Shown: positions 2,147 to 14,934, numbered from the stretch's first letter. The stretch is 14,934 bases of DNA from an uncultured Hippea sp. (GCA_913009315.1 CAJVZA010000050.1:1-14934); one strand, 5' to 3'. A program made the numbers and translations. The notes: generated from the letters alone by a model not told the origin.

Positions 2147-2730
2147 CAGAGCAGCCTATACTCTTGATGGTGAGTCGCTCCTTCGCCTGCAATCAGTTTC
2201 TTGTCCTGCATTCCTTTCAGGTCACGTTGCAAACTGCGGCGGTTCACATCCGGGCAGAGTTTTTCAAAGTCCTGAATGGTCAGCTTTTTGTGCTTCAGCA
2301 GGTAGGCGAGTGCTTTGCCTTAGCGATCGTTCAAGCTGTGTTTTTGTACCAGCGCATCACGACGAATGATTTGTTCACCTCGTTCTTTTACCCCGATCAT
2401 CTGAGTTTCCAGACCCGTGATGAAATAATCGAGCCAACCGGTCATATCCATATCGTTTTCACGCACGCTTTGGATCGATTTGTAAAAGGTTGACCTGTCC
2501 AGGTCATAATACTCACTAATGGTAAAGAGACGCTTGAAGTCGTATCCCGTCTTGTAAAGGCAGAGGGTTGACAGCAAACGTGAGGTACGACCATTTCCAT
2601 CAAGAAACGGATGAATATGAATCAACTGAAACTGAGCTATACCGCTGACCAAAACGGGATGAATCTTAAGATCGGAGTTTAGCCACTTAATCATTTTAGA
2701 CATCATGATCGGTACTTCCCGCAAACTCAT
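2146..2730 (-). pseudogene. Fic-family protein, 5'-truncated with internal stop
   Basis: Fic enzymes usually transfer AMP from ATP onto target proteins. The C-terminal part remains: the catalytic motif [12 protein letters not shown], with its His and the anion-binding Gly-Asn-Gly-Arg, then the helical tail, then a winged-helix-like segment ([18 protein letters not shown]). A TAA at 2320-2322 interrupts the frame after HSLNDR. The same frame continues past it for 57 codons of family-like sequence ([12 protein letters not shown] onward) to a TGA at 2146-2148; relatives commonly have Gln there, so CAA to TAA fits. The N-terminal half of the family is absent: the readable start (ATG 2728-2730) overlaps the stop of the transposase fragment next door. 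The piece ahead of the stop is 136 residues. Composition is visibly richer in GC than the ligase gene or phzF. Function is very probably lost. Confidence 0.88.
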
Positions 2731-3749
2731 AACGAGGCAGGCGGATCAACATCCAAGGCGGTATAGATATCTTTTTGCTTTTCAAGGATCTCTCCGACAC
2801 GCATCTTGTATCCGGGTGCTTCAAAGCACTCAATTACATCAAGCTTGTCCAGAAGTGTTCCGAGCGTATATGTTTTGTATAGTCCCTTCTCTTGCATCTG
2901 TTTCTTGATGTAAGAGAGATAGATCAATGCAACAAAGGCAACGAAGAGTTTGCCTTCGAGGCTCTGCTCGGATGAGACGAGCAGCCTTCTCATATTCAGA
3001 CGCTCCTTGAGATTGCCGAAGGCCTTTTCAACAACATCTTTGTTGCGATAGATTTTCAAAGCAGATATCGCATCCATCTTTTCATTGCCGGCAAGGGCAA
3101 AGAAGCCGTAATAGCGTTTGGTTTTTGCCACTACATCTTTCCTAACCTGGATAGCGACACCCCGCTTTAGTGTTTTGACCTTGAAGTATTTCTCATAAAG
3201 TGCCGCATGTGCTTTGATACGTCTGTTTGAGAGCAGCTCCTCGCGTAGGGCAATCAGACGATTGTCAAACGCTTTCTCCTCTTCTGCGGCCTGTTCGATA
3301 TTGAAGTAGTAGTGAATGTAGAGTCGCCGCTTCTGAAGAGTATCGCCTTTATATGGCCGCTCATACCGATAGTCCCAGTCGATTGTGACCGTATGGGTAT
3401 AGAGCTCATACTCCGCATTGTAGTGTTCAAAAGATCGGAAAGAATCATATATGGGATCCAAAGCTTTTCGGAAAAAGCTCAGTGACATTCTGACTGAGAG
3501 CAGAAACTTCAGATGGTTATGATATAGGCTGTTGATATTGGCCTCACTGTAGAAACCTCTATCCATCACCAGTTTCACTTTATCAAATCCCAACCGGGCT
3601 AGATCGCTCAGCAGATGACGGAGAGTTTTTGAATCAGGGATATTGCCGGCAAGTTTGCGATAGTAGAAGGGGAGATTGGAAGATGCCCCGAAGACAATGG
3701 CAAGATTGAGTTGTGCCAAATGGTCATGCTCTTTGTTGTACGAATTGCC
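2727..3749 (-). mobile_element. IS1634-like transposase, N-terminally truncated
   Basis: A DDE transposase of the IS4 superfamily, closest in feel to IS1634. The frame is open from 3749 to the TGA at 2727-2729; homology starts near the SYNKEHDHLAQLN segment, and the only start near there is a TTG at 3717-3719 giving 330 residues. VMDRGFYSE (51-59 from that start) carries the second catalytic Asp, and YRNKDVVEKAFGNLKERL (224-241) carries the catalytic Glu in the usual Y-R-E setting. The natural-looking C-terminus (PPASL) is present. The N-terminal region with the first catalytic Asp, roughly 200 residues in full-length members, is missing, and a TGA at 3750-3752 closes the frame upstream. I see no terminal inverted repeats. 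The fragment abuts the truncated Fic gene and probably removed its 5' half. It should be inactive. Confidence 0.85.
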
Positions 3750-5476: not shown

Positions 5477-5504
5477 TTGACTTAAATGGTAGAGATAGTA
5501 TAAT
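5477..5504 (+). promoter_or_regulatory. Sigma70-type promoter of the sulfur operon
   Basis: TTGACT (5477-5482), a 16-base spacer and a perfect TATAAT (5499-5504) lie 34 bases before the GTG of the desulfurase gene. The -35 box is embedded in ATACTTGACT (5473-5482), which fits the left half of the IscR type-1 consensus (ATASYYGACT), and AGTAT follows at 5497-5501. The two arms are four bases further apart than in the E. coli site, so Rrf2 control is only a suggestion. Confidence 0.75.
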
Positions 5505-5538: not shown

Positions 5539-6708
5539 GTGAAAACAATCTATCTCGATAATGCAGCATCTACAAAAATGGATGACGCAGCGATAGAAGT
5601 AATGACAAATTTTATGAGAAACGATTATGCAGTAGCTTCGAGTCAATTCTCTCACAGACCGGGAATCCTGGTTAAAGATGCTCTTGAGAACTCGCGCCTT
5701 ACTGTTGCAAAAGCAATAGGGGCAAAAGAAGATGAGATAGTGTTTACTTCAGGGGGCACAGAAGCCAACAACCTGGCTCTCTTTGGGACGGCAAAAGCAT
5801 TTGCAGGAAAAAGGAATCACCTTATAACAACCAAAATTGAGCATGTCTCTGTGAAGGACAGCGCAGCAGAGCTATCAGGAAACGGTATAAAAGTAACTTA
5901 CCTCGATGTCAATAATGAAGGTTTTATAGATCTTGACCAACTCAATGATGCGATAGATGATGACAAAACATTTCTTGTAAGTGTGCAATTTGCAAATCAG
6001 GAGGTAGGAACAGTTCAGAATGTAGCAGAGATAGGTAAAATATGCAGATCTCACAATGTATTGTTTCATACCGATTCAGCTCTCAGTTTTCCATCGATAC
6101 CGCTCGATGTCCGCAAATTGAATATTGATCTGGCAACATTCTCTGCGCACAAGATGTATGGACCAAAAGGTGCGGGAGCCCTTTACATAAGGAACAAAAC
6201 ACCTATTAAAAAAATTATGATGGGCGGTTTTAATGAATTTAATCTTCGCGGAGGAACCGAAAATGTACCTGCAATAGTAGGATTTGCCGAGTCGATCAGA
6301 CGATTTGACAAAAAAGATGTCGAAAAAGTGCAGGATTTAAGGAATAAACTCTGGACGAGTATAAACAAATCCATAGAAGATGTTCACATCAACGGTCCTG
6401 CCGATTTTTCAAAAAGGCTTGCAGGCAATCTTAACTGCTCATTCGACAGGGTTGAGGGTGAATCAATAGTTCTGCATCTTGATATGAATGGAATTGCCGT
6501 TATTACCGGATCGGCCTGTTTTTCAAGATCACTTGAACCATCCTATGTTATGATGTCTCTCGGATTTTCTCACGAACGAGCACACAGCTCGGTGCGATAC
6601 AGCTTCAGCAAATTCAATAACGAAGATGAAATAGAGCCCGTCTCGGAAGCAACGAAGAAAGTTATTGAACGATTAAGACAAATCAGTCCTGTAAAAAAGG
6701 CAATATAA
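5539..6708 (+). CDS. nifS: Cysteine desulfurase (NifS/IscS family)
   Basis: A PLP enzyme that strips sulfur from L-cysteine, leaving a persulfide on its own cysteine for Fe-S assembly and sulfur carriers. The start is a GTG 8 bases after GGAGG; length is 389 residues, normal for the group. Motifs: YLDNAAST (5-12), FTSGGTEANN (69-78), His102 stacking on PLP, Asp179 in FHTDSAL, FSAHKMYGPKGAG with the PLP lysine Lys205, and GSACFSRSLEPSYV with the sulfur-accepting Cys327. These numbers track E. coli IscS within one residue. Odd point: the D-x-x-Q motif whose Gln contacts PLP (Gln183 in IscS) reads DSAL, so the Gln is Leu182. The FGNPSS segment near residue 30 is also replaced by YAVASS. The gene heads an operon with nifU (11-base gap), tusA and dsrE. 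The desulfurase call is strong; the symbol is approximate. Confidence 0.93.
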   Translation: MKTIYLDNAASTKMDDAAIEVMTNFMRNDYAVASSQFSHRPGILVKDALENSRLTVAKAIGAKEDEIVFTSGGTEANNLALFGTAKAFAGKRNHLITTKIEHVSVKDSAAELSGNGIKVTYLDVNNEGFIDLDQLNDAIDDDKTFLVSVQFANQEVGTVQNVAEIGKICRSHNVLFHTDSALSFPSIPLDVRKLNIDLATFSAHKMYGPKGAGALYIRNKTPIKKIMMGGFNEFNLRGGTENVPAIVGFAESIRRFDKKDVEKVQDLRNKLWTSINKSIEDVHINGPADFSKRLAGNLNCSFDRVEGESIVLHLDMNGIAVITGSACFSRSLEPSYVMMSLGFSHERAHSSVRYSFSKFNNEDEIEPVSEATKKVIERLRQISPVKKAI

Positions 6709-6719
6709 GGAGAAAAACT

Positions 6720-7355
6720 ATGCCTATACCGTATTCTAACAAAGTAATTGATCATTTTTTAAAACCGCACAATTCGGGCTCCATAAAAGATGCCGATGCC
6801 GTTGCGACTGAGGGAAGTCCTGCATGCGGAGATATGGTAAAACTGTATCTTAAAGTTGATAAGAAAACAAAAAAGATAGACGATATAAAATTTGAATCAT
6901 ACGGGTGCGCTTCAAATATCGCAACTGCATCGATTATTACCGATATTGCAAAAGGCAAAACCATAGAAGAAGCAAAAAAGGTAACATGGAAAGCCGCTGA
7001 TGAACTGCTCGGAGGTCTTCCTCCCGTAAAAATACATTGTGCGGTTCTGGCAGTCGATTCACTTCACGCCGCAATTGAGAACTATGAACAAAGTCACGGC
7101 CTTGTTAAGAATCCCAAAACCACTACAAAAGAAATCGTTCTCTCAAGACTGAAACATGTGATAAACCCGCTTACAGGATTTAATGTTATAAAGGCGGATC
7201 TCATAAATGATGTAGTGATAAATAATGGAATCGTCACCGTTTATACAAAACTTGCCGGAGATCATCAGTTTGCGGCAAATATAAAAGAAGAGATTATTGA
7301 AAGAATTGAGCCGCTTTGGGATGTAAAAAAGGTTGAGGTAAAATTTGATGACTAA
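6720..7355 (+). CDS. nifU: IscU/NifU scaffold with C-terminal DUF59-like domain
   Basis: Residues 1-130 are an IscU-type Fe-S scaffold with three cluster cysteines, Cys36 (SPACGD, with Asp38), Cys63 (YGCASN) and Cys107 (VKIHCAVLA). The LPPVK motif that recruits the chaperone in E. coli IscU is present as LPPVKIHC. After a short linker, residues about 138-211 resemble the DUF59/MIP18 (SufT/Fe-S carrier) domain: the INPLTGFNVIKADLI start, an IVTVYTKL strand, then a helix and a KKVEVKF strand. The usual DUF59 cysteine region (often GCP) reads AGDHQF, so no metal-binding Cys is left there. There is no CxxC, which argues against the NfuA-type C-terminus of classical NifU. It begins 11 bases after nifS behind AGGAG and overlaps tusA by 8 bases. 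The scaffold call is firm; the fused domain is moderately sure. Confidence 0.92.
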   Translation: MPIPYSNKVIDHFLKPHNSGSIKDADAVATEGSPACGDMVKLYLKVDKKTKKIDDIKFESYGCASNIATASIITDIAKGKTIEEAKKVTWKAADELLGGLPPVKIHCAVLAVDSLHAAIENYEQSHGLVKNPKTTTKEIVLSRLKHVINPLTGFNVIKADLINDVVINNGIVTVYTKLAGDHQFAANIKEEIIERIEPLWDVKKVEVKFDD

Positions 7356-7569
7356 GGTAATAAAAGTTGACTGCATAGGTGAAACGTGCCCGATTCCGCT
7401 GATTGAAGTACGAAAAGCATGGATCAAGGTGGAAAAAGGAGATCTTATTGAAGCGGTAGGAAATCACCCGGCATCGTTTAAAGAGATACAGATGGCCGCT
7501 GAATCGTTAGGTTCAACGATCAAAGAGGCTGTCGGAGGAAAACAGTGGAAAATAGTGATAGAAAAGTGA
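7348..7569 (+). CDS. tusA: TusA-family sulfur carrier
   Basis: A 73-residue TusA/SirA-like protein. Members take persulfide sulfur from a cysteine desulfurase and pass it on for tRNA 2-thiouridine, molybdopterin or dissimilatory sulfur metabolism. The diagnostic CPIP motif has the carrier Cys14, preceded by VDCIGETC with an extra Cys9. Start: ATG at 7348-7350, inside the end of nifU (nifU stop at 7353-7355), implying translational coupling; a TTG three bases earlier is a weaker choice. The next gene starts inside its 3' end. Position directly behind a desulfurase and scaffold supports a role as relay in this operon. Confidence 0.93.
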   Translation: MTKVIKVDCIGETCPIPLIEVRKAWIKVEKGDLIEAVGNHPASFKEIQMAAESLGSTIKEAVGGKQWKIVIEK

Positions 7570-7982
7570 AAAAAGCGGCAATCATAGTTCACTCCGGTAC
7601 AATAGATAAGGTTATGAGCGCTTTGATTATTGGGAACGGATCGTTGGCTATGGGCATAGACTGCACATTATTTTTCACCTTCTGGGGTCTGTCGGCACTG
7701 AAAAAGGGAAGGATCAATTCTCTGCCATTATCCAGAATGAATTTATTCGGACTCGGAAAGAAATTGATAGACATGGCAATGAAAAAAAACAATGTTGCAA
7801 CCGCGCAGAGGCTTATAAAAGACTACAAAGAGCTTGGAGGAAAAATCATTGCCTGCGATATGACAATGTCATTGATGAATATCAAGGAGAGCCAACTCGA
7901 TAAATCACTTATCGACAGCTACGGTTCGGTAGGCAGCTTTCTGAATGAAGCAAAAGACGCTCAAATAACATTGTTTATTTAA
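7545..7982 (+). CDS. DsrE-family sulfur carrier (DsrE2-like)
   Basis: A 145-residue DsrE/DsrF-like protein. The conserved Cys104 lies in IIACDMTMSLMNI, the hallmark of the DsrE2-type group, and the C-terminus ends AQITLFI as in that group. A hydrophobic stretch with CTLFFTFWGL (40-49) is also typical. In sulfur oxidisers DsrE2 partners TusA in moving sulfane sulfur. The start is GTG 7545, six bases after GGAGG (7534-7538); a second GTG at 7566 overlaps the tusA stop but has a poorer ribosome site. It overlaps tusA by 25 bases and is the last gene of the operon. Carrier function is inferred from the family. Confidence 0.88.
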   Translation: MENSDRKVKKAAIIVHSGTIDKVMSALIIGNGSLAMGIDCTLFFTFWGLSALKKGRINSLPLSRMNLFGLGKKLIDMAMKKNNVATAQRLIKDYKELGGKIIACDMTMSLMNIKESQLDKSLIDSYGSVGSFLNEAKDAQITLFI

Positions 7983-8105: not shown

Positions 8106-8519
8106 TCAGCTGCCCTGTATGAGATCTGCCAGACTGACACTTTCAAGAAACTGATTAAGCTTTTTTTCCATTCCTTTCCATACTGTTTTGGCTTGGCAAT
8201 TGGCTATATCAACGAGAGGGCAATCATCCGGATTCTCACCCATACATGGAACGGAAAGTTCCACCGATGAAACCGGAGCAAGCAGCATCTTCATAGTAAT
8301 ATCCTCCGGTTTATGAGCCAGCTTGTATCCGCCCTTAGGTCCTCTAAAGCTGTTGACTATCCCCCGTTTCTCAAGCTCAAGCATAATTTTGCTCAAATAT
8401 TTGGCAGAAATATGCTGTCTTTTTGATACCTCTGCCAGCGCAACCGGTTTTCCATCGTGAAGTGCTATATCTATTACAGCCCTCAAACCATATCTGCTTT
8501 TTGTAGATATTCTTATCAT
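8106..8519 (-). CDS. Rrf2-family transcriptional regulator (IscR-like)
   Basis: A 137-residue winged-helix regulator. The N-terminal MIRISTKSRYGLRAVIDIAL and the ISAKYLSKIMLELEKRGIV recognition region are typical of Rrf2, as is the wing FRGPKGGYKLA (58-68). Three cysteines, Cys92, Cys100 and Cys108, sit where IscR has its 2Fe-2S ligands (92, 98, 104), though the spacing is longer, so cluster binding is likely but unproven. The start is the ATG at 8517-8519 because homology begins at MIRIS; upstream frame sequence is not family-like. It converges on the desulfurase operon instead of heading it, which is not the usual iscRSUA layout. By family knowledge it may sense Fe-S or cysteine status and control that operon. 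Confidence 0.9.
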   Translation of the reverse strand: MIRISTKSRYGLRAVIDIALHDGKPVALAEVSKRQHISAKYLSKIMLELEKRGIVNSFRGPKGGYKLAHKPEDITMKMLLAPVSSVELSVPCMGENPDDCPLVDIANCQAKTVWKGMEKKLNQFLESVSLADLIQGS

Positions 8520-8619
8520 TTCATAAACCTTCAATCTCCATGAGGATAATTCTATTGATTCTGCGCGCCGCATATTGAGAATTCAAATGCGCCTCATCAA
8601 AGCTCAAATTGCAAATAAC

Positions 8620-13951: not shown

Positions 13952-14899
13952 ATGCCAAAAATTAAGGCAATAGGGCTTCTGTCTGGCGGTCTTGATAGTA
14001 CGCTAGCGTTAAAAACAATTTTGAATGAGAATATAGATGTTACGGTTCTTCACTTTACCTCACCGTTCTGTACATGCAGCAGCAGAAAAGATGTATGCCA
14101 CAACGAAGCAGAACGAGTTGCAAGAGAGATGAAAGTTCCGATAAAAATAATGGTAAAAGGCGTAGATTATGTAAATATCATAAGAAACCCGAAATATGGA
14201 CATGGGAAAGGGATAAATCCCTGCATCGACTGCAGAATTTATATGCTGAGACGCACAAAAGAATATGGCGATAAGATTGGAGCAGCTTTCTATTTTACCG
14301 GTGAAGTGGTAGGACAAAGACCGATGAGTCAAAGAATAAACGCAATGAATATTGTCGAAAAGGAAAGCGGAATGAAAGACATACTGCTCAGGCCGCTTTC
14401 AGCGCACTTTTTTAAGCCGACAATAGCAGAGCGGGAAGGATGGGTAAACCGTGAACATCTTCTCAAAATATCAGGCAGATCAAGAACGCCTCTATTTGAT
14501 CTGGCCGAAAGTCTCAACATTGCGGATTATCCATGTCCCTCAGGCGGATGCAGATTGACAGACAAAATTTTTGCAAAAAAAATGAGAGATCTATTGGATC
14601 ATCAAGAGATAATCAGCTATTCCGATCTTAAGCTGCTTACCGTAGGCAGGCATTTCAGATTGAGCAAAAATGCAAAACTCATCATAGGAAGAGACGAACA
14701 GGAAAATGCCTTTATCGGCAATTGGTCATCCGGCTATATGAGCTTGTCTCCTGATTTTCTGGGGCCGGATGGAATAATTGTGGGAAAACCTGCGGAGGAC
14801 GATCTCAAAAAAGCCTCTGAAATCATGATATTCTATTCTAAAGAAAAAGCTCCGTCTGAGGCTCTGATAAAATTCAGCGACGGCAGACAAATAACAATC
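13952..14899 (+). CDS. PP-loop ATPase of the tRNA-thiolation type, 3'-truncated
   Basis: A PP-loop (SGGLDS, residues 11-16) adenylates a substrate, here most likely a tRNA base that then receives sulfur; MnmA, ThiI and related enzymes work so. Three cysteine groups follow: Cys40, Cys42 and Cys49; NPCIDC (Cys91, Cys94); and CPSGGC (Cys195, Cys200). Such pairs suit a persulfide relay or an Fe-S cluster. After about residue 215 a second domain (LKLLTVGRHFRLSKNAKLII onward) resembles the NFACT-R (DUF814) RNA-binding type. The start ATG follows GGAGG at 13,940-13,944. The gene reads 316 codons to 14,899, where the adapter begins, so the true 3' end is missing. Generic database names for this family include ThiI-like or MnmA-like; I do not assign one. 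Upstream TusA and NifS make natural sulfur donors. Confidence 0.82.
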
Positions 14900-14934
14900 A
14901 GATCGGAAGAGCACACGTCTGAACTCCAGTCCAC
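14900..14934 (+). other. Illumina TruSeq adapter contamination
   Basis: The last 35 bases begin AGATCGGAAGAGC and continue with the TruSeq read-1 3' adapter sequence through CCAGT, then CCAC where the adapter has CAC (one extra C). This is library adapter, not genome. Any protein residues encoded after 14,899 are artefacts. Confidence 0.98.

Follow-up and report, generated by a model that had tools for sequence, protein, structure and literature searches.

The DNA stretch analyzed here (the window) spans 14,934 nucleotides from an uncultured Hippea sp. (GCA_913009315.1, CAJVZA010000050.1:1-14934) and carries a plus-strand nifS-iscU-tusA-dsrE2 operon at positions 5539-7982, which, judged by its sequences, is a widely shared gene set predicted to build iron-sulfur (Fe-S) clusters. 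The four genes are linked across domains, most NifS proteins of the family have lost residues of the pyridoxal 5'-phosphate (PLP) site, the cysteines of the putative relay are invariant, and a second NifS lineage has converged on the same traits. We assign a probability of roughly 0.5 to the joint reading that the cassette is a horizontally spread assembly module of the iron-sulfur cluster (ISC) type, resembling a minimal ISC system (MIS), and that it represents an ISC/MIS variant in which persulfide would reach the scaffold through a TusA/DsrE2 relay and not only through PLP chemistry. The question addressed is how sulfur is routed to IscU in anaerobes lacking an active desulfurase.

The operon comprises four plus-strand open reading frames (ORFs), nifS (5539-6708), iscU (6720-7355), tusA (7348-7569, starting at ATG 7348, with TTG 7345 as an alternative) and dsrE2 (7545-7982), whose products all exceed the curated cut-offs of their Pfam models. 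Eleven bases separate nifS from iscU, iscU and tusA overlap by 8 bases (ATG 7348 to the stop at 7355), tusA and dsrE2 by 25 bases (GTG 7545 to 7569), and ribosome-binding sites precede nifS, iscU and dsrE2 (before 5539, 6720 and 7545). The top promoter-like site of the region, a putative sigma-70-like TTGACT-16-TATAAT predicted from the sequence only (plus strand, 5477-5504; 11 of 12 consensus matches), lies 34 bases upstream of the nifS start, and no terminator-like site was found on the plus strand within the operon. The ORFs and Pfam matches bear out the layout described in the first-pass annotation, with its gap and both overlaps, and the promoter search agrees with its proposal of one promoter; the positions it gave for the relay cysteines (NifS Cys327, TusA Cys14 counted from ATG 7348, DsrE2 Cys104) are correct, and the extra domain it had noticed in IscU is present and corresponds to MIP18/DUF59.

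When a DsrE2 alignment was scanned against 84,980 species genomes, a search from which locus counts are lower bounds, at least 27 loci fell within a tight DsrE2 subfamily at 50-60% identity, followed by a drop to 47% and below. Among the loci listed, at least 22 carried all four genes, 19 as tusA-dsrE2-nifS-iscU and three in the order of the window; the cassette was cut by contig ends in L046, L047 and L059, and L060 had no clear TusA. A further member of the subfamily, L051, has its dsrE2 beside mnmA and no nifS-iscU. Hosts included Methanosarcinaceae and Methanomassiliicoccus among the archaea, and Acetobacterium, Pelotomaculum, Peptoclostridium, Syntrophales, Chloroflexota, Atribacterota and Actinomycetota among the bacteria. 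Rare linkage elsewhere, which the first-pass annotation had named as a refutation of its idea, was not what emerged: the genes were found together in archaea and several bacterial phyla, their order shuffled and their linkage kept. A chance arrangement is excluded by this linkage in at least 22 complete loci elsewhere and by the synteny of the whole set in a congeneric species (L033). The neighbourhoods of 53 other DsrE2 loci contained no NifS hit at E 1e-20. Between the four proteins, pairwise distances were correlated (r 0.78-0.93; 0 of 2000 permutations), an effect to which host relatedness contributes.

Among the cassettes, no conserved flanking gene was found, flank clusters recurring in close relatives only; the larger ones (c0-c2), considered as a possible fifth gene, turned out to be antisense ORFs overlapping the cassette itself. 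A selenium-related, YedF-like function, or an unrelated sulfur-oxidation set lying beside nifS-iscU by chance, is very improbable: TusA does match the YedF model, yet weakly and far below its cut-off (28.7 vs. 79 bits), the linkage holds across domains, and neither a selenium nor an Hdr/Dsr neighbour emerged in the flanks. A YedF-type TusA-DsrE fusion was rejected as well, the two genes being separate here and TIGR03527 reaching 23.8 bits against a cut-off of 110. Like the rhd-tusA-dsrE2 clusters of sulfur oxidisers, the cassette has tusA adjoining dsrE2, but it contains no rhodanese, its DsrE2 bears a 20-residue deletion, the pair is joined to nifS-iscU, and the hosts include methanogens and acetogens. 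Membership in those clusters was discarded on the missing rhodanese and the unconserved flanks, and the contrast with them drawn in the first-pass annotation is apt.

The chemistry expected of NifS is where the family departs from known desulfurases. Of the 26 cassette NifS proteins among the loci listed whose sequence includes the site, 24 lacked the PLP Schiff-base lysine (Lys206 in Escherichia coli IscS; 22 Thr, one Leu and one Arg), and the PLP-stacking His was also gone in 23 of these 24. Proteins with Thr or Leu at position 206 carried Asp at the His104 position and His at that of Gln183, and in nearly all of them the residue aligned with Thr243 was hydrophobic. Lys206, His104, Asn155, Asp180 and Gln183 were kept in 26/26 canonical rows (25 loci plus E. 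coli IscS), as well as in 14/14 canonical paralogues from cassette genomes. The NifS loop cysteine, Cys36, Cys63, Cys107 and Asp38 of IscU, the TusA cysteine and DsrE2 Cys104 were invariant across the family, and mere decay of the lysine-less NifS is unlikely because its cysteine and the whole relay stay invariant. Cross-domain linkage and these cysteines speak for the functional unit envisaged by the first-pass annotation; its suggestion that a desulfurase takes the place of the rhodanese as sulfur source is unsupported in general, given the lost lysine, and would apply at best to the genus of the window.

IscU (6720-7355, plus strand; 211 residues) is a fusion with a C-terminal MIP18/DUF59 domain (PF01592, NifU_N, 144.5 bits; PF01883, FeS_assembly_P, 35.3 bits) that retains Cys36, Asp38, Cys63, Cys107 and LPPVK, the first four conserved in 26/26 aligned proteins. 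In its AlphaFold2 model (predicted local distance difference test, 91.9), the IscU half most closely matches Archaeoglobus fulgidus IscU (4eb5_C, Z 24.2, 53% identity), and the C-terminal half matches DUF59 structures (3lno, Z 11.0; CIAO2B, 6tbn, Z 9.8). According to Pfam and the alignment, the MIP18/DUF59 domain (7131-7340, plus strand) is cysteine-free, with HQF at the usual Cys motif, and no cysteine is conserved in the family alignment. TusA (7348-7569, plus strand; PF01206, 54.5 bits vs. a cut-off of 28.6) has a CPIP motif with the Cys codon at 7387-7389, and this residue was present in 26/26 aligned sequences. In the DsrE2-family protein (7545-7982, plus strand; PF13686, DrsE_2, 110.6 bits), Cys104 (codon 7854-7856) was present in 29/29; the protein reached 60 bits against the NF047629 equivalog, below the cut-off of 210, and exceeded that of the broader PF13686. 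Cassette DsrE2 proteins do not have the 20-residue insert found in most DsrE2, the WGL-to-LS spacing being 12 in the window vs. 31-33 in 24 of 28 others.

For the direction of flow, the sulfur source and the role of the MIP18 domain, we infer the following. DsrE2 Cys104 and TusA Cys14 would pass sulfane sulfur to the mobile-loop Cys327 of NifS, from which persulfide would reach IscU (Cys36/63/107 and Asp38), and the fused cysteine-free MIP18 domain may aid cluster hand-off. In most members, NifS would act as a structural partner and persulfide carrier that has lost its lysine and whose PLP site has degenerated; in the genus of the window it would still use cysteine, yet be wired to the same carriers. 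Since most cassette NifS proteins have lost the PLP lysine and His, sulfur more likely runs from TusA/DsrE2 to NifS-IscU than in the opposite direction. The sulfur itself may be sulfide-derived sulfane sulfur or may come from another desulfurase acting in trans.

The NifS of the window (5539-6708, plus strand; 389 residues; PF00266, Aminotran_5, 257 bits) is a NifS/IscS-type protein of class V aminotransferase fold, aligning to E. coli IscS across 383 residues. The nearest NCBIfam model was TIGR03402 (NifS; 409 bits, below the cut-off of 530.75), and TIGR02006 gave 386 bits against a cut-off of 643. By alignment with IscS, the Schiff-base lysine is present as Lys205 (6151-6153, plus strand) and the catalytic, family-invariant persulfide cysteine of the mobile loop as Cys327 (6517-6519, plus strand), and His102, Asp179, Ser202, His204 and Thr240 are also retained. 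The full set of IscS PLP contacts is not: Gln154 (5998-6000, plus strand; IscS position 155) and Leu182 (6082-6084, plus strand; IscS position 183) stand where every canonical enzyme compared has Asn and Gln, respectively. The same state, with Lys206, His104 and Thr243 kept and Asn155 and Gln183 replaced by Gln and Leu, was found in L033; Asn155 to Gln is common to the whole cassette NifS clade, across which position 183 is Leu, Phe or His. Parsimony is undecided between retention and regain of the lysine, and we favour retention given the kept His/Thr contacts and the Arg in L061. As Lys205 is kept, cysteine desulfuration may persist in this genus, whose NifS is probably still able to take sulfur from cysteine with two altered PLP contacts.

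These retained residues, Cys327 included, would suit an active NifS desulfurase that divides its persulfide between IscU, for Fe-S clusters, and TusA-DsrE2, for thiolation of tRNA or other targets. Such a division has a precedent in E. coli IscS, described as serving IscU and TusA through distinct sites (PMC2854127), and a cassette-type dsrE2 of a spirochaete (L051, 3731-5414, Spirochaetota) lies directly after mnmA, without nifS or iscU, which hints at a tRNA thiolation link. We nevertheless regard this model as unlikely: Asn155 and Gln183 are altered even in the window, linkage was kept in the 24 of 26 relatives without the lysine, and the cassette flanks have no tRNA-thiolation gene in common. 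The single persulfide source feeding both Fe-S assembly and carriers, as first suggested, may hold in part for the genus of the window and is unsupported as a general statement.

A second line of evidence for the relay comes from outside the cassette family. The tree placed a second lysine-less NifS clade elsewhere among lysine-bearing enzymes (100/99), with the order nfu-dsrE-nifS(K206Q)-iscU-tusA in 4/4 genomes of one other phylum, and nfu-nifS(K206T)-iscU-dsrE2 in G025, where tusA lies slightly further on; this lineage has converged on lysine loss and on linkage with dsrE/tusA. Overall, the lysine was lost in 25/27 linked NifS, in 3/28 NifS collected irrespective of linkage, and in 0/22 paralogues whose genomes either carry a lysine-less operon or belong to the same phylum; lysine state is a fair comparison here, since linked cases had been picked up via DsrE2. 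A DsrE gene lay within 1.5 kb of 28/32 lysine-less but only 2/49 lysine-bearing NifS, the latter two being those of the window and L033.

Cassette NifS grouped in a single clade (100/97) with relatives from the class of the window (L117-L119), and the lysine-bearing L121 branched next to it. L121 belongs to G025 (L147, 3125-5435) and is the closest outgroup of the cassette NifS; it is accompanied by an IscU-MIP18 detected by tblastn, with a further NifU_N gene downstream. Lysine-less nifS together with iscU-MIP18 was also observed in L145, L146 and L148 (G006, G019 and G013, same class), in genomes with no TusA, and G006 and G013 additionally carry a small extra NifU_N-like gene.

Several points weigh against the proposed relay. 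Linked cases were gathered via DsrE2 and related rows are not independent, so that only two to three independent lineage pairs are available and a sign test cannot reach 0.05. The window's own NifS keeps its lysine, and Metallosphaera cuprina DsrE2B, from the same DsrE2 group as 2QS7, the best Protein Data Bank match of the window DsrE2, was unreactive with every sulfur compound tested (PMC4175335). In the three genomes of L117-L119, lysine-less NifS and IscU-MIP18 occur with neither dsrE2 nor tusA linked to them, and TusA is absent from these genomes, indicating that TusA is not always needed. This last pattern would fit a lysine-less NifS serving solely as structural or ligand partner, with free sulfide as the supply and TusA-DsrE2 doing a separate job such as sulfane-sulfur buffering. 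Consistent with that, A. fulgidus IscS, which has neither the lysine nor activity, contributes a cysteine as ligand of the cluster on IscU (PMC7585200), and A. fulgidus IscU is the closest structure to the IscU half. However, this explanation, which we consider quite unlikely, accounts neither for dsrE and tusA linkage arising independently in two lysine-less lineages nor for the invariant TusA/DsrE2 cysteines.

Most cassette genomes, like the clade-2 genomes, also encode canonical desulfurases whose PLP residues are all intact, and one of these could load TusA in trans, so that the source could still be cysteine. TusA-DsrE2 would then carry sulfur from that separate enzyme, an alternative we find doubtful: the paralogues are unlinked to tusA or dsrE, and in an Atribacteria metagenome-assembled genome (MAG; G113), possibly incomplete, the cassette IscU was the only one, and SufB and any other strong desulfurase were not seen. 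MAG incompleteness limits such absence claims and likewise counts against the relay reading. The cassette IscU was also the sole NifU_N protein, with SufB absent, in G000 (88% complete) and G002 (94%), which also encode a further, SufS-like desulfurase in which every residue checked is intact except Thr243. With the sole recognised IscU and SufB not found, the cassette probably serves as the chief Fe-S assembly system in the genus of the window. In the second lineage, the lysine-less operon holds the sole IscU (NifU_N) of G066, G115 and G117 (97-99% complete), where SufB is absent. In the genome of the window, a SufS-like gene (L150, 1055-2739) overlaps that of a small scaffold-like protein unrecognised by any Pfam model, and recurs in G001 and G002.

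More tentatively, at somewhat less than even odds, the two lineages may constitute a convergent ISC class in which NifS/IscS is a PLP-free persulfide carrier and TusA/DsrE load sulfur not derived from cysteine (sulfide or polysulfide), which would provide the sole IscU-type scaffold of some near-complete SufB-less anaerobes, the genus of the window representing a still lysine-bearing form. If true, an enzyme would have been converted to a relay protein on two or more occasions. The cassette resembles MIS and ISC systems in pairing a NifS/IscS-type protein with IscU in a cluster without HscAB or carriers, and differs in usually lacking desulfurase chemistry and in the added TusA-DsrE2. It shares with the E. 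coli IscS-TusA-TusBCD pathway a desulfurase-type protein and TusA in one sulfur route, although there an active PLP enzyme donates to TusA; the E. coli genes are not in one operon and their DsrE homologues are of the TusBCD type. The A. fulgidus IscS-IscU pair (4eb5, 4eb7) likewise combines an IscS without PLP lysine but with its loop cysteine and a similar IscU fold; the crystallised IscU chain has no fused MIP18, and that IscS is regarded as ligating the cluster and not as supplying sulfur.

The closest described counterpart is isc1 of Methanosarcina acetivorans, with an IscS1 (MA0808) without the lysine and a 24.2-kDa IscU1 (MA0807), clustered with four genes of unknown function, possibly non-functional and compared with A. 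fulgidus IscS (Deere et al. 2020, PMC7585200). It shares the STGSACFS loop, the missing lysine and the IscU size with the cassette, which is also carried by Methanosarcina loci L042 and L045; the window differs in NifS lysine and gene order. The main text of that paper makes no mention of TusA or DsrE. Methanococci use sulfide with SufBC (the SUF-like minimal system, SMS), and SufBC is dispensable in M. acetivorans, where no sulfide-specific system has been reported (PMC10500019). A relay of this kind is not proposed in the excerpted portions of the M. acetivorans papers or of the SMS paper, and no paper tying TusA-DsrE2 to a lysine-less NifS-IscU was found in the open-access literature. The presence of the lysine-less NifS and TusA-DsrE2 module in genetically tractable Methanosarcina and cultured Acetobacterium makes the proposal directly testable.

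Outside the operon, a convergent gene on the minus strand (8106-8573; PF02082, 117.7 bits) encodes an Rrf2/IscR-like regulator with three cysteines, a possible Fe-S sensor, which scored below the IscR equivalog cut-off; it is syntenic in L033, and thus conserved in the genus, and was not found in the other cassettes tested. The PP-loop gene that had been put forward as a user of the sulfur 6 kb away does exist (13952-14932), but the user role fits poorly, and it was rejected as a dedicated user, lying near no complete cassette outside the genus of the window. The contig end (14900-14934) is Illumina TruSeq adapter sequence coding for its last 11 residues (RSEEHTSELQS), so that these are artefactual and the PP-loop gene is truncated. 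At 2320-3719, a Fic domain is preserved in its C-terminal part only and directly abuts a DDE transposase gene; an insertion element seems to have disrupted the Fic gene. Finally, positions 2-843, with a partial gene resembling, by eye, a cytosine DNA methyltransferase followed by a Vsr mismatch endonuclease identified by Pfam, look like a restriction-modification relic lying at the edge of the contig.
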